DNA from: an uncultured bacterium
GTDB taxonomy: Bacteria; Verrucomicrobiota; Kiritimatiellia; CAIKKV01; CAITUY01
Direction: 5' to 3'
Length of the DNA stretch: 36,197 nucleotides
NCBI GenBank assembly: GCA_903958395.1
Contig: CAJBSZ010000242.1
Coordinates: 1-36,197, forward strand
Under the pieces are notes generated by a model. That model made no database searches and was not told the origin of the DNA. It saw nothing but the letters and a program-made list of their open reading frames with translations. Positions 6,073-23,162 of this stretch are shown here, piece by piece. Each line of letters starts with the position of its first letter. Within the stretch, counting starts at the first letter, position 1. Both the position numbers and the translations under genes were made by a program.

Positions 6073-8817
6073 TCAGTGAATGCTCAGAATCAGCCCTGAC
6101 GGGGTTAGCAGCATGAGTTGCAAATTATCTGGCGAGGAAACCAGATGTGACCCAGGCCTGATTCCCGTCCCTGTGATTGTCGGCACAGTGGAAGCGGCGT
6201 AAGTGATCGGGTTCACCGATGTGAACAAAACACGTTTGTTTGGGAATGTGCCGGTTCCGCTGGCATTGATGACCATATTCGTGGGCAGCGTCAGCGTGCC
6301 CGTCACGTTGACAACATCCCCTGTTGTGGCGTTATAATTCCAGTAGACCACCGAGCCTTCGCCCAGGGTCAGATTATTTGCAAAAGTCAGGGTCCCGACG
6401 TCGTTATTCGTTGTCCCGCCCGAAACCCCGGCCCCCGAAGCGACGATGACCGAGCCGGTCACCAGGCCGTTCCCCGCCAGGTATTGATTGTTCGTGAGGG
6501 TGTACCCCGAGGTCCAGGCGCTGACGTTGAAGGTCGCTCCACTTACAACATTGATCGAACTCTGGTCAAGAACACCCGCCGCTGTCAGTTTCAACACGCC
6601 GTTACTGACTGTCGTCATCCCGCTGTAGGAATTGGCGCCGGAGAGCGTCAGCGTTCCAGATCCGAGCTTGGTCATCCCGCCTACACCGGCGCCCGAAACA
6701 GAGTTTGTGACGGAGAAATTGACGGTATCAATCTTTCCGCCACCCGCCAGGAAGTAGTTGGTGCCGATTCCGTAAAGCAGGTTGCTGCTGGCCCGCGCGT
6801 GCAGGACGCCTACGTTGCTGAAGTTCATGGCGGCCGTATTGCTGCTCAAGTTGACGCTGGAAACATACGCATCGCCCGACAGATTGAAACTGCTGTTGAC
6901 GCCACCGAGGGTGATGGTGCTGACGTTGGTCAGGACGCCGCCAACACCCGCGGTCAGGGTGTTGTTCGTGTTCGCCCCCGCGCCGCCAAGGGTTATCGCT
7001 CCTGTGCTGAGATCCCACAAAGCGCCCGCCCCGCCCACGTAAGCCCAGTTGCCATTGTTGGCAACGCCGAGGCTGGCGCCGATTTGGCTCGACGTGCTGA
7101 CGACCCGTCCGCCATTGGTGACGATCAAATAGTTGCCCAAGGTGTTGGTTTCAGTATAGGTGCTGTTACCACCAATATTCACTGCCCCTGCCGTCAACCG
7201 GCCGCCCTGGCCAACCAAGCACCCGTTAGAGACCGTATTGGCAGTGCTACTATTGTAGGCGTCGCCGATCGCTAAAGTTAAGAAGTTGACGGCGGCATTG
7301 CTCCCGTCGGTCCCGGCGCCCCCCACAATGATGTAGCAGTTGGAAAAAGAGCCATTCCGGCCAATGAAGCTGTTCCCGCCGACGAAGCTTGCCTGGCCGC
7401 CATTCGTGACTATCAGATAATTAGCTGTGCCTTGAATATTAAGTACATTGCCAACAAGCGTTCCGCCTTGATCCACTATGGCCCGGTTGTTAAAACCATT
7501 GAGATTTTGGCCGATGATAAAGGCATTAGCATCCCTCAAGGTCGCTCTGGCCCCGGCGCTGTTGGTGCCGCCCACGTAAAGGTAATTGTTGGTGGCGTTA
7601 AGACCACCCATGGTGAAATTACGGCTGGTGGCGTTAGTTCGCAAAAACTGGCCGCCGTTGATGATATTCATCGTATTACCGATACCGACGTTCCACCCCG
7701 CGCCAAAGCCCATGCCATTGACGATGGCCATCGTGCCGTTGTTGATGGTCAGCGTGGAGTTGCCGTTTTCACCTAAACTTACGTCAAACGAACCACTGAT
7801 CGGATAACTGGCATTACCGATCTGGAACACCGCGTTGGAATTCACGCTGAAAGAATTACCGAGAATCTTCGGCGCTATCCAGGTGCCGTTGGTCTGCACG
7901 AAGGAGATGAGATTAGAACCGCCGTTCATGGTCCAGTTGCCGCTCATGTTGTAGGCGGTGTTGGAAGGGATCAGGATGCTGGCCGCGATGGCGGCGGCGT
8001 TGGACGTGATCAGCGTGCCACCGCTCATGGTGAAGGCGGAAGCGACCGTCGCGCCGCCAAGCACGCCATTGGTGGAGAGCAACTGCTGGACGGTGATGGC
8101 GCTGCCGCTGTTCATTGTGAGCGCACCGGTCAGCACATTGATGGTTGCCCCAGGCGTGTTGATCGCGCCACCATTGGCAACCGTCAGCGTACCGCCGTTG
8201 ATCGTCGTGTTACCGGAGTAGGTGTTCGCGCCGGAAAGGGTCAGCGTGCTTGAACCGGACTTGGTCAAAGCCTTACCAGCCCCACCGATGGCGCCCGAAA
8301 AAATGAAGCCCGCCGTTCCGTTTCCCGTAAATGTGATGTCCTGGTTGAGCGTAAGATTGGGAGCGTTGGTGAAGGCCAGCGTTTTCGTGCCATTCATGCC
8401 GCTTAGGTTCACGGTGGGCGTGGTGCCGTCAAAGGTCCATGTGTTGACCGCCGTGCCGATGTTGACGGCTGTATTGGCCGTAGCTGACGCTCCCAAGCCA
8501 TTGAGTGTCAACGTATTCAGCGTGAGCGTGGCGGGATCGGCATTGATAGTAAAGGTGGGCTGCCCCAAGGCGGTGGTGGTGTCGCTGAAGAATACAACCG
8601 TGGCATCGGAAGCACCCACCGGCACGCCGTTCGCGTCCCAGTTCGCAGCAACATTCCATGGTTTAGCGCCAGCCACCGTGTTTGTGTAGGTGTAGGTAGT
8701 CGCCGCTTGCGCCGTTCCCGCCACCAGCAGCGCCATGACGGCGATGGCAAGCGCCGACAAACACCCTGAACTCGTTCGTCCGAAAGACCGTGTCACATCC
8801 TGTTGAAGTGTCTTCAT
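6073..8817 (-). CDS. Secreted protein with autotransporter-associated beta-strand repeats
   Basis: A 914-residue protein rich in Gly, Asn, Ser and Thr. Its N-terminal signal peptide has a hydrophobic core at about residues 20-36, with cleavage after AQA. Two clear autotransporter-associated beta-strand motifs are present: KSGSSTLTLSGANTYSG near residue 185 and KLGSGTLTLSGANSYSG about 500 residues later. Between them lie many short beta-helix-like turns (repeated NYLIVTNGG, YVGGAG). The family forms extended right-handed beta-helices on the surface or outside the cell. There is no outer-membrane autotransporter barrel and no PEP-CTERM or LPXTG anchor; the C-terminus ends LILSIH, so release or another sorting route is likely. 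An AAGGAG Shine-Dalgarno sits 7 bases before ATG 8817. It is the first gene of a probable three-gene operon with the two genes that follow it on this strand. Function beyond surface structure is unknown. Confidence 0.88.
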   Translation of the reverse strand: MKTLQQDVTRSFGRTSSGCLSALAIAVMALLVAGTAQAATTYTYTNTVAGAKPWNVAANWDANGVPVGASDATVVFFSDTTTALGQPTFTINADPATLTLNTLTLNGLGASATANTAVNIGTAVNTWTFDGTTPTVNLSGMNGTKTLAFTNAPNLTLNQDITFTGNGTAGFIFSGAIGGAGKALTKSGSSTLTLSGANTYSGNTTINGGTLTVANGGAINTPGATINVLTGALTMNSGSAITVQQLLSTNGVLGGATVASAFTMSGGTLITSNAAAIAASILIPSNTAYNMSGNWTMNGGSNLISFVQTNGTWIAPKILGNSFSVNSNAVFQIGNASYPISGSFDVSLGENGNSTLTINNGTMAIVNGMGFGAGWNVGIGNTMNIINGGQFLRTNATSRNFTMGGLNATNNYLYVGGTNSAGARATLRDANAFIIGQNLNGFNNRAIVDQGGTLVGNVLNIQGTANYLIVTNGGQASFVGGNSFIGRNGSFSNCYIIVGGAGTDGSNAAVNFLTLAIGDAYNSSTANTVSNGCLVGQGGRLTAGAVNIGGNSTYTETNTLGNYLIVTNGGRVVSTSSQIGASLGVANNGNWAYVGGAGALWDLSTGAITLGGAGANTNNTLTAGVGGVLTNVSTITLGGVNSSFNLSGDAYVSSVNLSSNTAAMNFSNVGVLHARASSNLLYGIGTNYFLAGGGKIDTVNFSVTNSVSGAGVGGMTKLGSGTLTLSGANSYSGMTTVSNGVLKLTAAGVLDQSSINVVSGATFNVSAWTSGYTLTNNQYLAGNGLVTGSVIVASGAGVSGGTTNNDVGTLTFANNLTLGEGSVVYWNYNATTGDVVNVTGTLTLPTNMVINASGTGTFPNKRVLFTSVNPITYAASTVPTITGTGIRPGSHLVSSPDNLQLMLLTPSGLILSIH

Positions 8818-11457: not shown

Positions 11458-12783
11458 CTAAGGAAATCGACAGTCTGTGGTTTCGCAACCAACAACATCC
11501 TCACAGGCAAGCGCCGGGCGAGGATCAGAGTGTTGCACCTTGGCGACCACGTGTTTCAAGGTCATCGCGCGGGCGTGACGGATCGTGAAACAGGAGGCCG
11601 GCAACGCTCCGAAATAGAAGTGTTCGGGATACATCGCCGGCTGTTCCGGGGGCTTGTTTTGAAGGTCTTCCGACTGACCTCCACCGACAAAGTTGATCTC
11701 GATGTCTTCTAGCGTGACCTCCTCGATGCAATGGCCAGGCAAGCCCGTGATCAGGACCCCGGAAAAAGCGCGGGCCGGCATCACACCCCCGACCACCGGC
11801 CTCACAATATCCTTGGGCGGCACAAAGACGTCGGCCTTGATGTTGGAGAGCTTGATACGCCTTAGTTTCCCCGGCCCCTTCGGTTCAGTTCCCGACAGAT
11901 AGGTGCGACCCCGCTCCCCCAATCGCATGAAGATTGGCCCCGTTCCACGCTCAATACGGATGTTCGAAATCTCGATATCCTCAAACACGCCGCCATCGGA
12001 GGTCAACAGTTTGATGGCCCCGGTCGCGGCATAGCGTATCCGGCAATCGGACATCCTGACCCGCCTGATGTCGCCATAGGATTCCGTCCCCAACTTGAGG
12101 CCACCGCACTCGGTGACGAGCGTACAACCTGAAACCTGGATATCTTCACAAGGCTCGGGCAAAGTGGCCTTGAGACAGATGGCATCATCGTCACAGGCAA
12201 TATCGCAATCGGTGATCGTAACCCGCCGACTGCTGTCCACGTCAATGCCGTCGTTGTTCTCATTGATGCGGCTGTCAATCGTGAGTCCAGTGATGTCCGC
12301 ATCCTCGCAACCCATCAAATGAAGGGTCCACGCGGCTGACGCGCGCAGGGTGAGCCCCGTGATGGTGATGTGGCGCGAATAGGCCAGGCGGCAAAGGAAT
12401 GGACGAACCTTGTGGTCGGCCCCGCCAATGGGGAAAGCCCCGCCGTTACCGTCAATGATCCCTTCACCGGTGATCGCAATGCGGGCCACATGTTCCGCCA
12501 TGATCAGCGCCCGGCCCCGGATATCGCCGATGGCATCGGTGAAGGATGTTTTGGGCGGGGGGTAGTCCGCTAGACTGGCGCTCCCCACGATGATCGCTCC
12601 GCGTTGCAGGTGCAACTCCACATTGTCCCGCATGAAGAGCGTGCCGCAGCGATAGGTGCCGGGCGAGAGGGTCACCCGGCCCCCGCCGTTTGAAGAACAC
12701 GCATCAAGCGCCGCCTGAATGGCGGGCGATTCCAGTGTGCTCTTGGATTCCCGCCTGTAAGTATGCAAGGTCACAGCATTCAT
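11458..12783 (-). CDS. GH28-family (polygalacturonase-like) glycoside hydrolase
   Basis: A 441-residue right-handed parallel beta-helix protein and the last gene of the six-gene operon. The N-terminus matches the GH28 start (ESPAIQAALDACSSNGGGRVTLSPG). GH28 acid motifs are visible: NNDGIDVDS and CDDDAICLK supply the catalytic Asp residues. The usual G-H-G motif reads ECGGLKLGTES, so the conserved His is replaced; the downstream basic motif also looks altered (AIKLL instead of RIK). Substrates of the family are galacturonans, rhamnogalacturonans and related uronic-acid polymers; the substitutions suggest a divergent specificity. No signal peptide is visible, so the enzyme is probably cytoplasmic. 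Its ATG overlaps the sulfatase stop codon (ATGA, 12780-12783), indicating translational coupling. Confidence 0.85.
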   Translation of the reverse strand: MNAVTLHTYRRESKSTLESPAIQAALDACSSNGGGRVTLSPGTYRCGTLFMRDNVELHLQRGAIIVGSASLADYPPPKTSFTDAIGDIRGRALIMAEHVARIAITGEGIIDGNGGAFPIGGADHKVRPFLCRLAYSRHITITGLTLRASAAWTLHLMGCEDADITGLTIDSRINENNDGIDVDSSRRVTITDCDIACDDDAICLKATLPEPCEDIQVSGCTLVTECGGLKLGTESYGDIRRVRMSDCRIRYAATGAIKLLTSDGGVFEDIEISNIRIERGTGPIFMRLGERGRTYLSGTEPKGPGKLRRIKLSNIKADVFVPPKDIVRPVVGGVMPARAFSGVLITGLPGHCIEEVTLEDIEINFVGGGQSEDLQNKPPEQPAMYPEHFYFGALPASCFTIRHARAMTLKHVVAKVQHSDPRPALACEDVVGCETTDCRFP

Positions 12784-14531
12784 GGTACTGCCTTATTCGC
12801 TTTGCCAGTTGAGGAAACCGCCGCTTCCTTCGAGACCCGGAAGTCGTGCGAAAGCGTTTCGGCCGTAGCGCGTGCCGTAGCATCGTAATCCCAGTACTGT
12901 TTCACCACGGCTTCGATTTGCGGGTAGTCGGCGCCATCATCGCCAATTGCCCGGCGGCGGTCGGCGAGTTGTTTTTTCAAGTCGCTGACCACCCGGGCAT
13001 AGGCGGGATCATCGTAGACATTCACCAGTTCCTGCGGATCTTTCTTCAGGTCGTAAAGCTCCCAACCGGGCGGCGTTCGCGGCATCTTGTCATCACGCCT
13101 CATACCGTAATAGAAAATGAGTTTGTAATCCTTCGTGCGCAGGCCGAGATTGCCGGGGTTGTCGTGATGGACCATATGCATCCAATAGCGATAGTAGGCT
13201 GCGTGTTTCCAATCCACCGGTTCGCGACCGGTCTCGCATATCGCCTTGAAACTGCGACCCTGCATGACTTCCGGAGCCTTGATGCCGGCGATGTCGAGCA
13301 ACAAGGGCGCAAAGTCGACGTTTTCGACAATGGCATCCGTGCGGGAGCCAGGTTTGATGGTTTTCGGATAGCGGATGATAAACGGCATCCGTTCCGATTC
13401 CTCATACATCCAGCGCTTATCCATATAGTCATGTTCGCCCAGCATCATGCCCTGGTCACTGGTGTAGATGATGACCGTATTCTCCATCAAGCCGGCGGAT
13501 CTCAGATAATCGAAGAGTATCGCCAAGCTGTCATCAATGCCCTTGACGCAGCGGAGATAGCGCTTGAGATATTCATTGTAAGCGGCCCGCTTGCGCTGTT
13601 CCTCGGTGGGCAACGCTTCGAATCCGAACTTTTTGACATAATTGAAATGGGAGTTTCGAGTGCCGATGGAAGTTCCGATGTAGGGCAGGAGTTCATCATG
13701 ATGGCCCCGCGTGGCGATGGAGCCAAAGCCGGGCTGACTCCACAGGCTTGATGGTTCAGGGATCTCGACGTCTTTCAAGTAATCCTTGTATCGCGGGGCA
13801 AACTCGAACATGTCGTGCGGCGCCTTCTCATGATACATGAGGAAGAACGGTTTTCGAGGATCGCGCTTATGTTTCATCCAGTCCAGCACCAGATCCAATA
13901 TGACATCGGTGGTATGCCCCTCCCGCTTGATGGTGTTTCCCGGCCAGGGCTTTTCGCCCCTGACGAGGAAGGTGGGATTGAAGTATGGATTTAGCGTCGG
14001 GAGTACGCAGTAGTCGTCAAAGGGGCGGGGCTCGGCGCGCAGGTGCCACTTGCCGATCATCGCCGTCTGATAACCTGCCTGCTTCATCCCGATGGGGAGA
14101 TACTGGCAGGCGGGTTCCAATGTGCCATCCAGGTCATAGACCTTGTTCCGGTGGTTGTATTGCCCGGTGAGGATGGAGGCGCGGCTGGGAGTGCAGATGG
14201 AGTTTGCGGCAAAACAGTTTTCAAACAGCATCCCCTCCTTCGCCAGTTTGTCAATTGTGGGCGTTGGGTTCAACTTCGCCAGCCGGCCACCGTAAGCCCC
14301 GATGGCGTTGGCCGCATGATCGTCGGACATGATAAAAATAATGTTGGGCTTACCAGCCAAGGCGGGAACATCAGAGGCACTCAATGCGGCCAGGGGCGTC
14401 AGGATCTCCCGGGTGATCTGTGGAGGCTTGCCGTCGAGATACGGCGTGAACGGGTCGGTCGAATTGGCGGCGTGCAGCGGGATCAGCGTGGCCAATAGAA
14501 GAAGAAGAAGAAGTGTAATGGTGTATTTCAT
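12780..14531 (-). CDS. Exported family S1 sulfatase
   Basis: A 583-residue arylsulfatase-type enzyme with a strong signal peptide (residues 1-21, poly-Leu core). The alkaline-phosphatase-fold start KPNIIFIMSDDH supplies metal ligands Asp70 and Asp71, and the maturation motif CTPSR (Cys113-Arg117) gives the Cys that becomes formylglycine. Downstream landmarks are GKWHL, HDMFEF, a TSDQGMMLGEH metal/substrate motif and a C-terminal DUF4976-like tail. It removes sulfate esters from sugars in the periplasm or outside. No formylglycine-generating enzyme or anaerobic maturase gene lies in this window, so activation depends on genes elsewhere. It follows the GH43 chimera by 11 bp and overlaps the GH28 gene by 4 bases. 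The exact sulfated carbohydrate cannot be told from sequence. Confidence 0.92.
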   Translation of the reverse strand: MKYTITLLLLLLLATLIPLHAANSTDPFTPYLDGKPPQITREILTPLAALSASDVPALAGKPNIIFIMSDDHAANAIGAYGGRLAKLNPTPTIDKLAKEGMLFENCFAANSICTPSRASILTGQYNHRNKVYDLDGTLEPACQYLPIGMKQAGYQTAMIGKWHLRAEPRPFDDYCVLPTLNPYFNPTFLVRGEKPWPGNTIKREGHTTDVILDLVLDWMKHKRDPRKPFFLMYHEKAPHDMFEFAPRYKDYLKDVEIPEPSSLWSQPGFGSIATRGHHDELLPYIGTSIGTRNSHFNYVKKFGFEALPTEEQRKRAAYNEYLKRYLRCVKGIDDSLAILFDYLRSAGLMENTVIIYTSDQGMMLGEHDYMDKRWMYEESERMPFIIRYPKTIKPGSRTDAIVENVDFAPLLLDIAGIKAPEVMQGRSFKAICETGREPVDWKHAAYYRYWMHMVHHDNPGNLGLRTKDYKLIFYYGMRRDDKMPRTPPGWELYDLKKDPQELVNVYDDPAYARVVSDLKKQLADRRRAIGDDGADYPQIEAVVKQYWDYDATARATAETLSHDFRVSKEAAVSSTGKANKAVP

Positions 14532-14542
14532 ATGATTCGTCC

Positions 14543-17500
14543 TCAGGTCATCAGTGGCAGCCTCTGCTGGTTGCGAATGATTTCCATCCGCAGTTTCGCG
14601 CCTGCGGGCGTTGCGTTGAGAGCCTCACGGAATTCCGTCAGCCCTCTCACGGTCCGGCCGTTCAACCCCAGGACAAGATCACCCATGCGCAAACCTGCCT
14701 CGTGAGCCCCAGTCTGCTGGGGAACTTCCTCCACAACCACCCCGCCTGCATCCGCAGGCACGCCAAACGCGGAATACTCAAGGCCCTCCATATCGCGAAG
14801 GGTCACACCCTTCCAAGTCCAGGTGACTTGCGCCATGACCGGCGCGTCTATTTGCGGGGTGCCGGGAACGACCGGCGAGATCACCGGAGTCCGCGCCATG
14901 GCCTTCAAGCGCGGTGAGCAGACCCCGAACAGGTCCATGGGGAAATTAACGAATCCCAGTTTCAACGCCGGTGAACCAGCCTTAACCCGGAAATCGCCTT
15001 TGGCGGCATCCACAAAAAGCGGATCGCCTGAGATCGAATTCGCATCGCATCCTTTGTCGGCGAACTTGGTTCGGTCGGACTCCGAGGTGACATACGTTGT
15101 ACTGGTCAACTGCTCCCGCCAGGCGCCGAAATGGCCCTCACCGAGGAGGACGCCAGCCGCAAACAGATTGTCATCCACCTCCCTGCCCCATCGGGCGAGC
15201 TTCATTCCCGCCGGGCGATAGGGACCCATCACGATGTTGCGGGCAAAGACGTCGCCGGAGTTCTCGTACCAGACGTGCGGATGGAGGCTATTGTTGACGA
15301 TGACGTTGTTCGTCACGATACGGTCATAACCCTCTCGTAATTTGAGCCCTCCGTTCAATAGCAAGTTGTTGTAAATCTCATAACGGGATGAACCGTCGTC
15401 AAGATCCACGTCCCAGCCATGGTCACAACGCCAGCGGTTGTTCCGCATCACAATCGGCTGCACAACGTCCAGCAGCGGCAGCGCGGGGTCGGCGGCGACC
15501 TGTTTGTCCACCTCCTGCACGGAAGGATGCCAGAAACGGTCGCGTCCCCAGGAGTTGAAACTGCCATGGTCGCCGGTCTCCAGCACGGTATCAAAAATGT
15601 CGCAGTTCTCGATGACGTGGCCGCCCCAGCAGCCGTCGCCGATATTGATGCCGGCTCGCGGCACATCGTAGATCGAACAGTGCCGCACGGTAATGCCCTG
15701 CGCCATGTCGATCTCCACCGGCGCGGTCTGTTTCTCGAACCGGCCGCTGCGCGTAATGAGGCAGTCTTCCACCAGGCAGTCGGCGGGGTAATTATCCGTG
15801 AGCGGGCCGGGAGTCCGGTCGACCGTCGCGTAATCGAACTTGTCATCGTAATTGAAAACCGGACTCCGGACCGCCATGGGATCGCCCACAAAGGCGATGC
15901 CGTTCGCCCCGCTCTCGCGGATGAGGCAGCCGCGCACGGTGATGCGGCGGTTGTAGTTGTTGACGAAGACGGTGTTGCCGCCGACCTGGTCGAAATCGCA
16001 AGCCTCGATCGCCGAGTCCTCCGCACCGTTGAACACCACCGCCCCCCCGCGATAGACCGTCCAGTCCGAGCGTAACAGCGGTTCGCGATTGTCCATAAAC
16101 GTCCGCGCCGTATGCCGGAACGTCAGCCCGCGCACCGTGACAAACTTCACGGGGTTTTCCCGCGTCCCGTTGAATTCAATCAAATGGCGCAGTCGCACGA
16201 CTTCAATCGTCGCGCTCTTCAGGTCGACTGCGGCGGGCGGAATGAAATATAGCATTCCGCTTTTCGCGTCGTGGAACCACTCGCCAGGCGCGTCGAGTTC
16301 CTCGCGGATATTTTCCACAAACCGGAACTGCGGGTGCATCGGGCTTGGTCGGTTGTTCTGCCAGCCCCCCTCATACTCAAGCGAGCCATCGGCTTTCTTG
16401 CCCAGGATGCGCCAGTGCATATCGCCCCAGAGACCGACATGCATCGCGTGAATGTAGCCGTCGGCAGGGTCGGCCCAGCGGGCGACCCGTTCAGGCGAAA
16501 TGGCATCCGGCGCCGAACCGTTGAACTGTGCGGCCTTGGGGTCATACTTCGGATAGCGTGCCATATGCTGGCGCACGCCGTTGACAAAAAGCTGGTCCAT
16601 CACCAGGCCTGCGGGCGTTTTTGCCTGGAAGATCCCGTCACGGAAAGGCTGCCAATCCAATTCCAAGCGGGAGCCACCGCTGAGCACCGGCTTTTCGCCC
16701 GGCACTGCGGCATAGACTACCGGGGCCTCCTGCGTGCCTGAATCGGCCTCCGTGAACCGGAGGGTCTCCGGCAGGTAGTGAATGCCGTGATGCAGCAGCA
16801 CCATTACCGGCTCCCCGCGCCCGGCTATGGCGCGGGCGGCGGCCTGCGCCGCGGCGAGGGTTGCCAAAGGTTTTGTCGCCGTGCCGGGATTAGCGTCGTC
16901 ACCCTCTGGCGCGACATGGAGCCTGACGCCAGGCAGGGGGGGCAGGAGAATGAAGTCCGGCTGCTCCGCCGCCACCCCAGCCTTCCCGACCTTGTCGAAC
17001 TTAATCCGGACAATGCCGGGTTTTTCACGCCAGGGCGACCTGTAATCCGGTCCGAAGAAGGCGCTGTACCAGTGCCCGTCCCTGGCCTTGAAGAAGTTGC
17101 AGCCCCCGTTACACGGCACGCTCTCGTGTCTCATTTTATACGGTCCGTAAATGGAGTCGGAAACCGCCAGGCACATGGAATAGCGCCCGTAATAGTGATC
17201 TGTCGAGCCCAAGTAGTACTTCCCTTCACGCTTGAAGATCGTCGCCCCCTCGTAACCGATGCCAACCGGCTCCCGGTGATGGGTGGCGGGATCGTGGGGC
17301 GGATCCTCCAAAACAACCGGACGCAGGGGTTCGGCCAGATCGCTCAGATCATCCTTCATCCGGGCGATCCGGTTCGCCGGGCCGTAGGTGAAATAGACGG
17401 CGCCGTCGTCATCCTCAAAGAGGGTCGGATCAATCAGGAAGGAGCCTGGCAGGGGCCCGATGCCGCCCACGAGGGGTTTATCGGGGTTGGTCGCATGGAC

Positions 17501-18079
17501 ATAGGGCCCCTCGGGCTTGCCCGTCGAGCTCTTAAGGATCGACATCCCGCCCGGCGGCATCCCGAAGGTGAGACAGTAGTTCTTGTGAATGTACCTGATT
17601 TCCGGGGCCCAGATCGCACGGGTCGGGCCGCGGTGGTCGCGCCACAGCTTCTCCCATCCGCCGTCCTTTTCAATGCTCCAGACCAGACCCAGATAACTCC
17701 ACTGGATGAGATCGGCTGATTTCCACAGTTCGATCCCGTCATTGAATTTCCAGATATTATCACCCGACGAGCCGGTCATATAGTAATTCCCGTCCCCGCC
17801 AAGAATGATGTTGGTGTCGCGCAGATGGATGTCCCACACCGGCTTAATACGCGGCAGCAAGCCGCTCGTGACGACCTCACCCGTGGCCAGCGTGGCACGG
17901 TTCTCCTCCGTCACCGGGCCGCCCCCGACATCCGAGGCGCCGCCTCCGAGAACCCCCTCCCCCACAACCGGCCGGCCCGGCCCGGAAAGACCGGTACCTG
18001 TTTTGCGCACGGCATCAATCTGATCCCGAGTAAACTCCCGCGCCGCATTGATCTCAATAAGCTTCACACAATTCGTCAT
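14543..18079 (-). CDS. GH43-like beta-propeller fused to a right-handed beta-helix and a PDZ domain
   Basis: An 1178-residue protein with three parts. Residues about 80-375 look like a GH43-type five-bladed propeller with the expected acidic triad: Asp88 (RDTN), Asp217 (IDPTLFEDDDG) and Glu277 (GYEGATIF). From about 385 a long right-handed beta-helix starts HVAPEGDDANPGT and resembles the GH120/GH141-type helix proteins. The last 85 or so residues form a PDZ domain (GGVVVEEV, GLRMGDLVLGLNG). The first 75 residues are Gly-rich, without a signal peptide, so it appears cytoplasmic unless exported by another route. The start at 18079 is preferred because GAGGG lies 6 bases upstream. The longer frame from 18151 would overlap the preceding gene and lacks a site. 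Probable roles are removal of arabinosyl, xylosyl or galactosyl groups plus a second activity in the helix; the PDZ role is unknown. Confidence 0.87.
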   Translation of the reverse strand: MTNCVKLIEINAAREFTRDQIDAVRKTGTGLSGPGRPVVGEGVLGGGASDVGGGPVTEENRATLATGEVVTSGLLPRIKPVWDIHLRDTNIILGGDGNYYMTGSSGDNIWKFNDGIELWKSADLIQWSYLGLVWSIEKDGGWEKLWRDHRGPTRAIWAPEIRYIHKNYCLTFGMPPGGMSILKSSTGKPEGPYVHATNPDKPLVGGIGPLPGSFLIDPTLFEDDDGAVYFTYGPANRIARMKDDLSDLAEPLRPVVLEDPPHDPATHHREPVGIGYEGATIFKREGKYYLGSTDHYYGRYSMCLAVSDSIYGPYKMRHESVPCNGGCNFFKARDGHWYSAFFGPDYRSPWREKPGIVRIKFDKVGKAGVAAEQPDFILLPPLPGVRLHVAPEGDDANPGTATKPLATLAAAQAAARAIAGRGEPVMVLLHHGIHYLPETLRFTEADSGTQEAPVVYAAVPGEKPVLSGGSRLELDWQPFRDGIFQAKTPAGLVMDQLFVNGVRQHMARYPKYDPKAAQFNGSAPDAISPERVARWADPADGYIHAMHVGLWGDMHWRILGKKADGSLEYEGGWQNNRPSPMHPQFRFVENIREELDAPGEWFHDAKSGMLYFIPPAAVDLKSATIEVVRLRHLIEFNGTRENPVKFVTVRGLTFRHTARTFMDNREPLLRSDWTVYRGGAVVFNGAEDSAIEACDFDQVGGNTVFVNNYNRRITVRGCLIRESGANGIAFVGDPMAVRSPVFNYDDKFDYATVDRTPGPLTDNYPADCLVEDCLITRSGRFEKQTAPVEIDMAQGITVRHCSIYDVPRAGINIGDGCWGGHVIENCDIFDTVLETGDHGSFNSWGRDRFWHPSVQEVDKQVAADPALPLLDVVQPIVMRNNRWRCDHGWDVDLDDGSSRYEIYNNLLLNGGLKLREGYDRIVTNNVIVNNSLHPHVWYENSGDVFARNIVMGPYRPAGMKLARWGREVDDNLFAAGVLLGEGHFGAWREQLTSTTYVTSESDRTKFADKGCDANSISGDPLFVDAAKGDFRVKAGSPALKLGFVNFPMDLFGVCSPRLKAMARTPVISPVVPGTPQIDAPVMAQVTWTWKGVTLRDMEGLEYSAFGVPADAGGVVVEEVPQQTGAHEAGLRMGDLVLGLNGRTVRGLTEFREALNATPAGAKLRMEIIRNQQRLPLMT

Positions 18080-18105
18080 GGATAACCCTCGCTCTTTGCA
18101 CTTTC

Positions 18106-19296
18106 TTAGACTGCATATTGACTCACGCACTCTTTGGCGATTTTGTTCCATTCCTCCAACCGCTTCGGTTCACGGTTGACGGTGCTGATATCCTTCATGT
18201 ACATGGCCACGGTGCAGCCGTATTCGTGCGCAATGGCCAGATTCTCCTCCAGGTAGCGCCGTACGGCACCGGGATCCCAGTGTTCGCCCGCCAGCATCGC
18301 CGGATGGGGCCGCCAGCCGAAAATGAACCGGTTACGCACGTTCTGCGCGCCCTTGCGGAAGTCCACCCAGGGGCTCATGGATATCTGGTACAGGTTCGGC
18401 AGGTATTGCGCACAGATATCCACCTTGTTGTGCAACGGTTCACAGCAACCATAATGGACCCGCTTGAACCGCTTGAAAAACCGGGCCTCGTGCTGGAGCG
18501 CAAATTCCCCGTGCATCTCCGGGGAGACTTCGGAGAAGATCTGGGCGGCACCGGACACGGTCATCTCACGGGCAGGCTGTTCCAGTAGACCCTGGGCCTC
18601 CAATTGGTCCACGCGTGACAGCCAGCAGTCCACCAGCCGCGCCACCAGCTTATGGACATAGTCAGGGCGCAGCACCAGATCCATGAGGATTTCCTGGATG
18701 CCGGTCCAGCAGATCAACTCGTCCCACGGCACAAACCAAAATGAGGTGATCCCCTGCTTGCGAACGGAGAGGATGCCGTCGAAGATCTCGTTCCGCTTCT
18801 GATAGAGTTCCTCGGTGAGCCGCGCGTTGTGGCTGATCACCGGCATTTTGATCTTTTCGATGTCGCCCTCGTCCTGAATCTGGATGTGGAAATGGCGGGA
18901 CACGACATTGTTGGCCGCGTCCGTCTTCACAATATCCACCTGCTCGCTGATACCGAAACCGGAATCCTCGATGCAATAGGGCTGGATGGATTCGGCTGCG
19001 ACCACCAAGTCGCCAGGATGGTGCCGCCACTTGTACAGTTTGCGCCGCAGATCCCGTTCGATACCCTGGCAAAACGGATCAACGCACCGCATGTCCAGTT
19101 CCCCGGTCTGTTCCAGCTCGTTCCAGGGTTCCTGAAAAAAGGTAATCGAGGGGCGACCCGTCTGCATCTGGTCTACCGCCTCATGAACCCGGCGCCGCTC
19201 GTCGTTGACCGGGTCGGCGGCGGCCTCCGCCAATTCCCGCCCAAGTTGCCCCAAAACCCCACGATCCGAAGATGGAATTGACGTACTCATAATCAC
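18106..19296 (-). CDS. Uroporphyrinogen-decarboxylase superfamily protein
   Basis: A 396-residue (beta/alpha)8 protein of the URO-D/MtaA superfamily. True URO-D enzymes decarboxylate haem precursors, and the MtaA/MtbA branch transfers methyl groups to and from corrinoids using a His/Cys zinc site. Here HYGCCEPLH (residues 281-289) fits a metal-binding loop of the methyltransferase side, and the conserved haem-pathway N-terminus is not recognisable. Members of this superfamily are often found next to glycosidases and transporters in Lentisphaerota and relatives, with unknown substrates; that is family context, not proof. It starts 3 bases after the transporter stop codon and is followed after 26 bp by the GH43 chimera. 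The start is GTG 19296 or ATG 19290; GGGAG lies at a better distance from the GTG. It is probably cytoplasmic, perhaps demethylating or modifying a sugar product. Confidence 0.82.
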   Translation of the reverse strand: MIMSTSIPSSDRGVLGQLGRELAEAAADPVNDERRRVHEAVDQMQTGRPSITFFQEPWNELEQTGELDMRCVDPFCQGIERDLRRKLYKWRHHPGDLVVAAESIQPYCIEDSGFGISEQVDIVKTDAANNVVSRHFHIQIQDEGDIEKIKMPVISHNARLTEELYQKRNEIFDGILSVRKQGITSFWFVPWDELICWTGIQEILMDLVLRPDYVHKLVARLVDCWLSRVDQLEAQGLLEQPAREMTVSGAAQIFSEVSPEMHGEFALQHEARFFKRFKRVHYGCCEPLHNKVDICAQYLPNLYQISMSPWVDFRKGAQNVRNRFIFGWRPHPAMLAGEHWDPGAVRRYLEENLAIAHEYGCTVAMYMKDISTVNREPKRLEEWNKIAKECVSQYAV

Positions 19297-19299
19297 AAC

Positions 19300-20715
19300 T
19301 CACTCTCCCACCTCTGGTTTGGATGTATCCGGAGGGACAAACGCATCGAGGTTATCACCGCATTTTTCGCGCACATATCGGTAGACGCGGTATTGGAAAT
19401 AGGATGCCAGGCCATAGAAGAGCACCAGCCACACCGGGGCATAGCGGTAGGCAAACTCACTACCATGGTGGCACCACCGCATGACATCCAGGAAACCGCC
19501 CATCAGGATCCCGGCGGCAATTCCCGTGAACCCCACCAGCATGCTGATGGCGGACATGAACTGCCCGAAGCGTTCCCGCGGCAGGAGTCTCATGTTGATC
19601 GGAACCTGAGCCACCAGCATAACGGCGGTCACGCCCAGCAGCAAGAGATTCAACACCACCGAGACAACCAGCACCTGCCGCACGGGCATATCCACAAACA
19701 GGAATACGAGGAATCCCGCTGAGATCACGGTTTGGACCCCGCGCAGGACGGCGAACACCTTGACCACATTCATGCGGTCAATAAAGAGGCCGGCGATGAA
19801 AAAGACCGGCAGGGAGATAAGGGCGCCGTACCCGGCGATCCAGCCGATCTGTTTAAGATCGAGTCCCAGACTCCTGTTCATCAACAGGACAAACGGGGTC
19901 GCGGCGTTACCCACCTGCGTGAAGGCGGCGCCCAGGCAAATGTCCCAGTAGAAACGATGCCCGAAGGATTCGCGGAAATAGCCCTTCACCTTTCCAATCC
20001 AGGAGCCACCCGCCGGGCCCGGCGGCGGCGGCGGCGGATATTCCCCTTCCTTCACATTCAGGCACATCAGGGTATTCGCGATGGCGAAAAACACTCCGAA
20101 CCCGATGAAAACCTCGCGATAGTGGGTTTCGGCAAAGGGGAAAATGAGGAAATTAAACGCCACCACGGCGACGGTGCTGACAATCCGGAACATCATCGAA
20201 AAACGCCCCATCACTTCACGCGGCACGGTGTCGTTGAACAACATCCAATAGGGATCCCACACAAACGAGTTGCACATGGTGAACAAGAGGAGAAGCACGA
20301 CCACCACGCCAATGCTGCCCCCGGCTGCCGTCAGGGCGCCGCCGGAAAGGCGCACCATCAAGTGGCCGAGCGGATCGCTCAACCCGATGGCGACGAGAAT
20401 CAGGGCCATGACCGGCGTGCCTCCCAGCAGGAATGGAATACGCCGCCCCCACCGGCTCCGGGTGCGGTCACTCCAGGTCGAAATGACCGGGTTCCAGACC
20501 AGCCGGATCACGCCGGGCAGGCTGGTCATGAAGATGGAAATCAACATCGCCGAAGCGCCAAGGCTCTTGAGTTTCAGCGGAATGACATTGGGGATCACCA
20601 CCTCCACGATGTTGGTAAAGAAGGCGCCCCATAACAGCCAGGAGAAAAGGAGCACCAACCCCGGCGACGTGTAGGTCAGGGTGCCCAGATGATAAAGCCG
20701 CCCGGATTTTGTCAT
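19300..20715 (-). CDS. GPH-type (MFS) sugar:cation symporter
   Basis: A 471-residue integral membrane protein with about 12 hydrophobic helices. It belongs to the glycoside-pentoside-hexuronide branch of the major facilitator superfamily, shown by the loop DRTRSRWGRRIPFLLGG between helices 2 and 3 and by NPVISTWSD. These carriers import glycosides, pentosides or hexuronides with H+ or Na+ across the inner membrane. Position inside a glycosidase operon indicates uptake of oligosaccharides or monosaccharides released by the exported enzymes. The start ATG overlaps the stop of the beta-helix lipoprotein gene (ATGA, 20712-20715), and the stop is 3 bases before the URO-D-like gene, so the three genes are tightly coupled. 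A Pro-rich stretch (YPPPPPPGP) sits in the central cytoplasmic loop. Confidence 0.9.
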   Translation of the reverse strand: MTKSGRLYHLGTLTYTSPGLVLLFSWLLWGAFFTNIVEVVIPNVIPLKLKSLGASAMLISIFMTSLPGVIRLVWNPVISTWSDRTRSRWGRRIPFLLGGTPVMALILVAIGLSDPLGHLMVRLSGGALTAAGGSIGVVVVLLLLFTMCNSFVWDPYWMLFNDTVPREVMGRFSMMFRIVSTVAVVAFNFLIFPFAETHYREVFIGFGVFFAIANTLMCLNVKEGEYPPPPPPGPAGGSWIGKVKGYFRESFGHRFYWDICLGAAFTQVGNAATPFVLLMNRSLGLDLKQIGWIAGYGALISLPVFFIAGLFIDRMNVVKVFAVLRGVQTVISAGFLVFLFVDMPVRQVLVVSVVLNLLLLGVTAVMLVAQVPINMRLLPRERFGQFMSAISMLVGFTGIAAGILMGGFLDVMRWCHHGSEFAYRYAPVWLVLFYGLASYFQYRVYRYVREKCGDNLDAFVPPDTSKPEVGE

Positions 20716-23135
20716 TTAAACCTTTTCGCCCTCTGCATTTTTTCGAAGGGTATCGGCTGGAAGCCGGGAATTTGCCTAAAGATGACCGAGTCCGGGCGGA
20801 GCGTGAAGTCGCCCGCCGCCTCATTGACAAAGCCCGGATCGGTGTCGATCTCCACGTTGTGGTGGCGGTAATCCTGGTCCGGGTAACGGCTGCTGCCAAC
20901 GCCCTCGTCATTCCCAACCAGTGCGTTGTTGAAGACGCGGTTGTAGAGCGGGGTGTTGGTATTGTTGTTCACCGCAACCCCGAGATAGGTCTGGTAGAAC
21001 TCAGGATAGCGGGTGGAGTAAGGCGTCGCGGCCACATTCACATCCTTCGTCAGCATCTTCACCCCTAAGGTATATGTCGCAAGAGCCTTGGCGAAATCAC
21101 ATCCATCACCGGTTTTCACCCCGGGGTTGTCAATGAACAGGTTGTTCGCGATCACATGGTCATGGCCCTCCGTGATCCCGATCTGGCTGCGGCTCCAGGG
21201 CTTCACCGTGCGACCGATATTGCGGTAGAACACATTGCCGAAGACCTCCACGCCGTGGGTGCTGTTATCCAGGTAGACGGCGCAGTTCTGGGCGTTATGG
21301 TCCGGACTGCCCCGCTCGTTGTGATGGATGTAGTTGAATCGCAACTTGTTGCCCAGCATGCTCGGATTCTGGCGGGTCTCGATCACCCCGCCGTCTTTGG
21401 ACGCGGTGAGTCCCCGGCAAATTTCATTGTACTGCATGAGGTGGTCGTTGCCGAGGAAGTAGAGCAGCCCCCCGAGATTGTCATGCAGGTAGTTCCCTTC
21501 GACAACATTGCCACAGCCGTCCACAACGATCGCTTCCGAGTACATGTGGATGCGGCGATCCGTGTGATGGATGTTGGAATTTCGGACGAAGTTTTCTGCC
21601 GTGGTCAGCGTCTTGCGGTCGCCGCCGCCAAGTAGCACGCCCCCGCAACCTGTGTCATAAATCGTGCAGCCCTCAAGTCCGTTGCGCCGTCCACCCTGGC
21701 GATCCAGCGCCGTCGCGCCGGGAAGACGGACCGGAAGATTCTCCATGCCGGTGCAGAGCACATGCCGGTATGAACCGGGCAGGCGCGGCAGCGGTTTGCC
21801 GGGTCCGGCGGCCTTGGCCTCGGGCGGATAAGAAACACCCTGGGAGGATTTATCGGCCAGCCCGGTATCCCAGCCAAAGCCGATTTGCACTCCGACGACG
21901 CCGGTGTTGCGGATGACGCAGTTCTCCAGGACATTGTCCTCGCCTCTCTCGATGTAGACGCCGCTGGTACGCGTCGCCTCCAGGGTCAGGCCCCGCAGCC
22001 TCACATGGGAAGAATTCTCCATTGCCACCAACACATCATTCAACATGGAGACGACCACCTCCGACTTGCTACTCCAGCCTTCCGGCGGATAGAGGGTCAG
22101 CACACCGGTCTTGCGATCGAGATAATATTCGCCGGGCACGTCAAGTTCGTCCGGCAGATTGAAAATATAAAACAGCCCCGCCACGTCCTCATAGGTGGCC
22201 CACAGCCCCCTGATGGGTGTGTCAAAGGTAAGAGTGCCCTTCTTGGAATCCACCGAGGCTATTTTCCGGCTCGTGAACGCATAAGCGCGGATCAATCCCC
22301 CGGCGATGTAGGCGTCATCCAAAGGCCCCCATTGGACGGCATGGGAAAGCGCCTGTTGAGGGAAAAGCGCCGGGACATCGCCCTGATCGCCAAATCCCCA
22401 CGGCTTGATGGGCACATCCTTCAGCGAAATCGACGAATACTCCTTGGGATTGCCCTTTTCATCCTTCACGACAAGCTGAGAGGCGGCTTCGACCACACCT
22501 AGAAATGGCGACTTTTCGTTTAGGTTGGGCCAGCGAGCCAGGGTCATTGCCTTCCCGTCAATGGAGAGTTCCATCGGCGCGGGCAGATAATGCGAGCTGG
22601 AACCGAAATCCAGCGCGTGCAGCGGATGCAGTTCGCCATAGTCGGTGATCCCCAGGGCCTTCAGATCTGCCTGAATCAGGTGCCGTCGGGCGCGGCGGCT
22701 CACCACACGATCCAGAAATGCAGGATCCGTGACGGGTTTGAAAGCCGGGGCGGGAATCATTTTCCCGCCCACCAGCCGCACCGTTTCACCCGGCATGGCG
22801 GCATAAACAACCGGTGCGCCGGGTTTACCGGAATCGCGGGCATCCAAATCGAAGGAACGTTCACGGAGATAGACACCCTCGCGGAGCCAGACGGTAACAC
22901 CCCCATTGGGATATTTGCCCACCGCCTTGAGTTGCCGAACGGCATCGCGGGCCCGTTCCAGCGTCGCAAAGGGATGTGCCCGCGTCCCTGGGTTCACATC
23001 ACGCCCATCCGTCGCCACCCAGAAGGCAACACCGCTTGAGGCGGAGGCCGTCAGGGTTTTCGACAGGCACCCGCAAAGCAAACAAATCAGCGAGAGTCCT
23101 GCAATCAGCCGACCATGACCATTTTTTACTATCAT
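20712..23135 (-). CDS. Right-handed beta-helix lipoprotein, GH141/GH120-like
   Basis: An 807-residue protein when started at ATG 23135, which has GGGAGA five bases upstream; a longer frame from 23162 lacks a Shine-Dalgarno. The N-terminus is a lipoprotein signal peptide ending LICLLCGC. Then comes the characteristic beta-helix cap WVATDGRDVNPGTRAHPFATLERA, here broken only by description: VATDGRD, NPGT and PFATLERA are the key parts. A long parallel beta-helix follows with many Asn-rich turns (NCVIRNTG, NNLFIDNPG). The whole length and cap resemble proteins of the GH141/GH120 type, some of which are fucosidases, xylanases or xylosidases. It would act at the envelope on imported or external glycans. 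It is the first gene of the operon, with its start about 63 bp downstream of the shared 16-base motif. Its 3' end has a paralogous relic at 609-686. Confidence 0.86.
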   Translation of the reverse strand: MIVKNGHGRLIAGLSLICLLCGCLSKTLTASASSGVAFWVATDGRDVNPGTRAHPFATLERARDAVRQLKAVGKYPNGGVTVWLREGVYLRERSFDLDARDSGKPGAPVVYAAMPGETVRLVGGKMIPAPAFKPVTDPAFLDRVVSRRARRHLIQADLKALGITDYGELHPLHALDFGSSSHYLPAPMELSIDGKAMTLARWPNLNEKSPFLGVVEAASQLVVKDEKGNPKEYSSISLKDVPIKPWGFGDQGDVPALFPQQALSHAVQWGPLDDAYIAGGLIRAYAFTSRKIASVDSKKGTLTFDTPIRGLWATYEDVAGLFYIFNLPDELDVPGEYYLDRKTGVLTLYPPEGWSSKSEVVVSMLNDVLVAMENSSHVRLRGLTLEATRTSGVYIERGEDNVLENCVIRNTGVVGVQIGFGWDTGLADKSSQGVSYPPEAKAAGPGKPLPRLPGSYRHVLCTGMENLPVRLPGATALDRQGGRRNGLEGCTIYDTGCGGVLLGGGDRKTLTTAENFVRNSNIHHTDRRIHMYSEAIVVDGCGNVVEGNYLHDNLGGLLYFLGNDHLMQYNEICRGLTASKDGGVIETRQNPSMLGNKLRFNYIHHNERGSPDHNAQNCAVYLDNSTHGVEVFGNVFYRNIGRTVKPWSRSQIGITEGHDHVIANNLFIDNPGVKTGDGCDFAKALATYTLGVKMLTKDVNVAATPYSTRYPEFYQTYLGVAVNNNTNTPLYNRVFNNALVGNDEGVGSSRYPDQDYRHHNVEIDTDPGFVNEAAGDFTLRPDSVIFRQIPGFQPIPFEKMQRAKRFK

Positions 23136-23162
23136 AACAATCTCCCTGCTTCCCAAATTCAT

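Follow-up and report, generated by a model that had tools for sequence, protein, structure and literature searches.

The window analysed here is the whole of contig CAJBSZ010000242.1 (assembly GCA_903958395.1), a stretch of 36,197 nucleotides from an uncultured bacterium of the class Kiritimatiellia. Its reverse strand carries a gene (14543-18079) for a single protein of 1178 amino acids (aa), in which a propeller of glycoside hydrolase family 43 (GH43), a right-handed beta-helix resembling GH141, and a PDZ domain follow one another. That the three domains lie on a single protein, as an earlier note on this DNA had proposed, was borne out: the open reading frame (ORF) is unbroken across all 1178 codons, and three Pfam matches lie above their gathering cut-offs. 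The start codon, ATG 18079, is separated from the upstream gene by 26 bases and is preceded by a Shine-Dalgarno-like GAGGG (18086-18090, reverse strand) at -11 to -7, whereas an alternative in-frame ATG at 18151 would run into that gene. When the remaining reading frames around the 5' end were checked, they revealed no signal peptide and no other open continuation.

The propeller occupies residues 79-362 (16994-17845; all parts of the gene are on the reverse strand) and matches Glyco_hydro_43 (PF04616) with 86.2 bits against a cut-off of 32.2 (E 3.2e-24). In a first structure model this part was mostly below a predicted local distance difference test score (pLDDT) of 50, because GH43 sequences were missing from the alignment. 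Addition of four distant GH43 rows, giving a five-row alignment, raised the model to moderate confidence (mean pLDDT 54.9, predicted template modelling score 0.61), and the VIA matches listed for it are GH43-type enzymes, with a best Z of 24.2 to GH43 beta-xylosidases. Viral contigs were also searched for GH43 relatives to enrich the alignment, and 0 of 8 stretches were confirmed. The acidic triad reported by the earlier note is indeed intact, since D88 (17816-17818), D217 (17429-17431), and E277 (17249-17251) are kept in every GH43 relative with the respective position aligned, and D217 and E277 fall on the IDP motif of 5glk and on the EG/EA glutamate of solved GH43 structures, respectively. 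D217 and E277 are thus candidate pKa modulator and general acid, and D88 a candidate general base by analogy with the GH43 family. Judged by family, this part would hydrolyse an arabinosyl- or xylosyl-type bond with inversion.

Residues 1-75 (17855-18079) form a Gly-rich extension without a signal peptide (maximal nine-residue hydropathy 1.26 within residues 1-90). The earlier note regarded this N-terminus as unexplained, but a counterpart exists in L220, a stand-alone GH43 protein of 425 aa that shares 57% identity with the fused GH43 part (52.5% over residues 31-374) as well as the triad. Unlike the fusion protein, L220 is a single-domain protein with a signal peptide, and the matching SGPG...GDGLGG stretch sits shortly past that leader. 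Thus, the Gly-rich N-terminus is native to this GH43 clade. The fusion protein begins approximately where mature L220 begins, with the leader gone.

A linker (residues 363-385; 16925-16993), located where stand-alone beta-helix-PDZ relatives carry their signal peptide, leads to the beta-helix at residues 386-1062 (14894-16924). Pfam matched Beta_helix at residues 677-730 (E 5.2e-13, above the gathering cut-off), and the model of residues 380-1178 has a pLDDT of mostly about 90. Both Foldseek (E 4.8e-28) and VIA (Z 36.1; next row 25.6) ranked 5mqp, the GH141 alpha-L-fucosidase BT_1002, at the top; model residues 383-1062 superpose on its chain residues 18-618, including the inserted domain, with a root-mean-square deviation of 3.0 over 511 aligned residues at 23% identity, although BT_1002 contains neither GH43 nor PDZ. 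Of the GH141/GH120-like character suggested by the earlier note, only the GH141 half therefore stood. A GH120-like beta-helix was ruled out by the absence of the PF21258 insertion domain at E 0.01 and by the position of XylC (3vst) far behind 5mqp. The best sequence match is 9rx2 ('Parallel beta-helix repeat protein'), which does not occur among the structure rows listed.

A scan of 84,980 species genomes found 421 relatives, the best 80 of which were kept, and 78 of these entered a 79-row alignment (A1; near-copies L069 and L093 left out). About 100 columns are invariant in this alignment, and a large share of these hold Asp, Glu, His, Trp, or Arg. They include D837 (15569-15571) and D894 (15398-15400), each invariant in 79/79 rows. 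These residues are candidate counterparts of D523 and D564, both of which are required for BT_1002 activity according to two reports (PMC10154630, PMC12786026). D523 was mapped to D837 by extending the sequence alignment ungapped beyond its final matched segment, using the chain offset (about 5) given by the VIA range, and the RxD motif of GH141-like proteins from the same genome falls on D894. The pair is kept as a candidate assignment because the hidden Markov model alignment to 5mqp ends before the catalytic region and because, in the GH141-like rows from the same genome, MAFFT put the first Asp motif in the wrong place. With GH141 membership putative and the catalytic pair placed by such mapping, one may ask whether the beta-helix merely binds or is inactive, which would leave GH43 as the sole catalyst; the wealth of invariant columns and the rule that stand-alone copies occur without any other enzyme make this improbable.

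The PDZ domain (residues 1092-1174; 14558-14806) is of the HtrA/DegP type, with a match to PDZ_2 (PF13180; 40.4 bits against a cut-off of 27, E 3.6e-10) and structural similarity to the DegP PDZ 8f0a_D (TMt 0.77). The protein is not itself an HtrA/Do protease by TIGR02037, which scored 43.5 bits against a cut-off of 416.2 and covered the PDZ part only. The earlier note suggested that the PDZ domain docks to operon products. A tether of this kind, binding the C-termini of operon partners into a multi-enzyme complex, would agree with the HtrA-type fold, with the PDZ stretch filled in 77/80 relatives, and with the frequent location of the beta-helix-PDZ module beside fucosidase genes. However, a hydrophobic last residue was found in 10/69 co-directional close neighbours versus 70/277 other ORFs (p 0.08, a crude test), a difference in the opposite direction and thus no excess of ligand-like ends. 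Moreover, the putative carboxylate-binding loop reads W-K-G-V in the fusion protein, its glycine being kept in 53/79 rows, and the PDZ domain is much less conserved than the beta-helix, where the invariant columns fall. Given the neighbour C-termini and the lower conservation, we did not adopt the docking idea and consider it quite improbable; the PDZ domain seems instead to have been inherited with the beta-helix.

The combination of beta-helix and PDZ belongs to a common and widespread family, of which we found no description in the literature searched. The best 80 relatives come from Planctomycetota, Verrucomicrobiota, Kiritimatiellota, Lentisphaerota, Bacteroidota, Acidobacteriota, and Armatimonadota, and mostly match residues 385-1176 at 52-72% identity; their high PDZ count leans towards PDZ bearers because the ranking used the query including its PDZ. 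At E values up to 1e-60, 30 of 387 genomes of the phylum, including the genome studied here, hold such a gene. In contrast to the fusion protein, these relatives are usually about 800 aa long and lack GH43, and 75/80 carry a leader, seen as a strongly hydrophobic stretch just ahead of the match. Many also continue past the PDZ domain for about 180 aa, with a C-terminal extension which in L061 (8359-8919) is without a Pfam match and looks discoidin-like by eye.

No second example of the full GH43-beta-helix-PDZ layout turned up in the sets searched (the 80 loci; phylum, class, and two further phylum sets; and 16 genomes). None of the 80 beta-helix-PDZ loci has a fused GH43 of this kind; L098 has a separate, distant GH43 gene directly after its beta-helix-PDZ gene. 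With an E limit of 1e-15, GH43 relatives were found in 8/387 phylum and 9/345 class genomes (own genome included in each), in 5/294 genomes from the phylum to which G393 belongs (L041, a Pirellula metagenome-assembled genome, MAG), and in 4/296 genomes of that of G398 (L058, Pseudarcicella); at 1e-10, they were found in 4 of 16 genomes holding a beta-helix-PDZ gene. Matches in frames of at least 1000 aa were read and have partners other than beta-helix-PDZ, and those under 800 aa were read in part because both parts together need more than 1000 aa.

Partners of either half are diverse. In the GH43 clade they comprise, with some shorter frames included, sialidase-like BNR (L200), GH2 (L201, L203), sulfatase (L202), GDSL (L223), GtaA/DUF5127 with two GH43 (L221), CBM4_9 (L146), and GH130/GH32-like domains (L148), and the broken gene L204 has an N-terminal part that resembles L221 by eye. 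By Pfam, GH95 stands ahead of beta-helix-PDZ on contig C12 of the same genome and in L099 and L182, and by likeness also in L183; the partners of L183 and L204 were assigned by likeness rather than Pfam. Behind the module are GH29 in L038, GH88 in L095, and an alpha/beta hydrolase in L076. Both halves are therefore much-shuffled modules, which are joined in the window protein. In a tree of 111 rows made by a quick method, the GH95 fusions form one clade (96) with one unfused row, and the window protein groups apart from them, next to L038 (SH-aLRT 93), so the GH95 and GH43 fusions are separate events. L038, from an Opitutaceae MAG, is also the top-ranked relative, but it has its GH29 alpha-L-fucosidase behind the PDZ domain and a signal peptide in front. 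The GH95 proteins resemble the window protein in having a glycosidase ahead of the same module; inspection by eye shows a leader in the own-genome copy, in L182, and in L183, and L099 is cut at its start. Taken together, the statement of the earlier note that the layout was not known holds for the triple combination in the sets searched, but not for beta-helix plus PDZ, which is common and has other enzymes as fusion partners in other proteins. Fused glycosidases of this sort recur, and the layout adds a new combination to that pattern, with GH43 in front as its unusual part.

The same genome provides further examples. On contig C12, L129 (2-4804, reverse strand) is the GH95-beta-helix-PDZ protein, 1601 aa long and cut by the contig end; L133 (contig C408, 2-367) encodes a second, slightly different PDZ end, so that the genome holds two near-copies. 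On contig C403, L131 (492-3488, forward strand) is one 998-aa protein in which GH43 is likewise followed by a beta-helix; this beta-helix, unlike that of the window protein, is GH120 with its insertion domain (PF21258, E 6e-25), and no PDZ follows.

The GH43-beta-helix junction lies in frame between domains, and the beta-helix signal peptide is dropped there. G+C content at third codon positions hardly differs between the GH43 part (0.758) and the beta-helix part (0.760), and there is thus no composition break. A genuine gene fusion is the best explanation of this in-frame join at a domain boundary, with the second leader gone and even composition. The rival explanation that an assembler joined a GH43 gene to a beta-helix-PDZ gene draws on there being one instance of the fusion only, and on a 595-aa frame near the end of the same contig (34267-36054, reverse strand), which combines a YicC-like start with the C-terminal two thirds of ribonucleotide reductase and is probably an assembly chimera. 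Since the fusion gene is tightly spaced on both sides and the beta-helix-PDZ module is joined to other enzymes in independent genomes, we regard such an origin of the fusion gene itself as very improbable.

Six genes on the reverse strand, the fusion gene being the fourth, are spaced by -4, 3, 26, 11, and -4 bases and probably form an operon. In order they encode an 816-aa beta-helix protein with a hydrophobic leader and a lipobox-like LCGC by eye (20712-23162), a major facilitator superfamily (MFS) sugar transporter by Pfam (19300-20715), a UroD/methyltransferase-like protein by eye without Pfam match (18106-19296), the fusion protein, a sulfatase (12780-14531), and a rhamnogalacturonidase-like GH28 (11458-12783). 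The 816-aa protein and the sulfatase have leaders, and the GH28, the UroD-like protein, and the fusion protein have none. As the fusion protein lacks an export signal and the operon contains an MFS transporter and a leaderless GH28, the most likely place of action of the fusion protein is the cytoplasm, where imported oligosaccharides would be its substrates. Alternatively, a real and bifunctional fusion protein may be exported, its leader having been lost in assembly or its start misread. Leaders in most beta-helix-PDZ relatives and in L220, together with the export of two other operon products, the sulfatase and a beta-helix protein, speak for this alternative, but it is rather unlikely in view of the good ribosome site at ATG 18079, the upstream gene 26 bases away, the lack of a leader in any frame, and the leaderless GH28. 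As a speculation, the UroD-like protein in a sugar operon may point to the handling of methylated sugars.

For the substrate of the beta-helix, we scanned the genes immediately next to the 80 relatives (136 of 140, those of L069 and L093 being left out). GH29 was the commonest family (14/136; 9/91 and 5/45), and GH95 accounted for 6/136; a GH29 gene also adjoins a stand-alone beta-helix-PDZ copy on contig C375 of the same genome. Glycosidase genes cluster anyway, and 16 chosen genomes of the relatives (about 94 Mb) contain at least 234 genes for GH29 and at least 540 for sulfatases. Sulfatases made up 5/136 neighbours despite that background. The GH29 and GH95 neighbours, the rarity of sulfatases, and the GH29 and GH95 fusions support a fucosyl substrate, and we infer that the beta-helix site is fucosyl-specific.

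With moderate confidence, we therefore favour a gene fusion that produced a two-site glycoside hydrolase, with a GH43 site, a GH141-like fucosyl site, and an inherited PDZ domain, which acts in the cytoplasm on imported oligosaccharides. In this scenario, the exported sulfatase and the beta-helix lipoprotein would trim oligosaccharides outside first, and the MFS transporter would bring them in. The N-terminal propeller would take off one sugar type, arabinosyl or xylosyl by family, and the beta-helix would cleave a fucosyl-type bond, so that a single chain may strip both decorations of one branched oligosaccharide; the PDZ domain, which usually follows this beta-helix at the C-terminus, would have arrived together with it. 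Several observations weigh against this reading. The fusion is known from one assembly, the other genomes searched being without it, and this, together with the frame towards the other end of the contig that is likely to be a chimera, is the main weakness of the fusion verdict. A cytoplasmic site departs from a family with leaders in 75/80 relatives. The GH141_M insertion model gave no match to the fusion protein at E 0.01, and the relative L182 scored 19.6 bits, below the cut-off of 27. The GH141 fold does not fix the substrate, because the family also includes a xylanase (PMC5593877) and endo-fucanases (PMC12786026). Finally, the operon neighbours of the fusion gene itself are GH28 and sulfatase, not fucosidases.

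If both sites work, GH43 and fucosidase-type activities on one chain would help to name the side chain degraded by the operon. The beta-helix-PDZ family, which several phyla share, also offers a test case in which a glycosidase that is mostly secreted bears a conserved PDZ domain of the HtrA type, and the recurring GH29 and GH95 fusions make its substrate directly testable. It is tempting to speculate, although we hold this wider proposal to be unlikely, that GH141-like-PDZ proteins are an undescribed, widespread fucose-releasing family and a fusion hub that was joined in separate events to GH95, GH29, GH88, an esterase-like hydrolase, and GH43. The PDZ domain would then position partners or substrate, and the window protein would be a cytoplasmic all-in-one debranching offshoot for imported oligosaccharides.

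Two further loci were noted. On contig C207 of the same genome, L225 (1-3555, reverse strand) joins a GH141-like beta-helix to a sulfatase, and the gene next to it encodes a similar beta-helix, a full-length relative of the solved 9rx2. In the window, 6073-8817 (reverse strand) encodes a 914-aa protein with autotransporter-type PATR repeats by Pfam.

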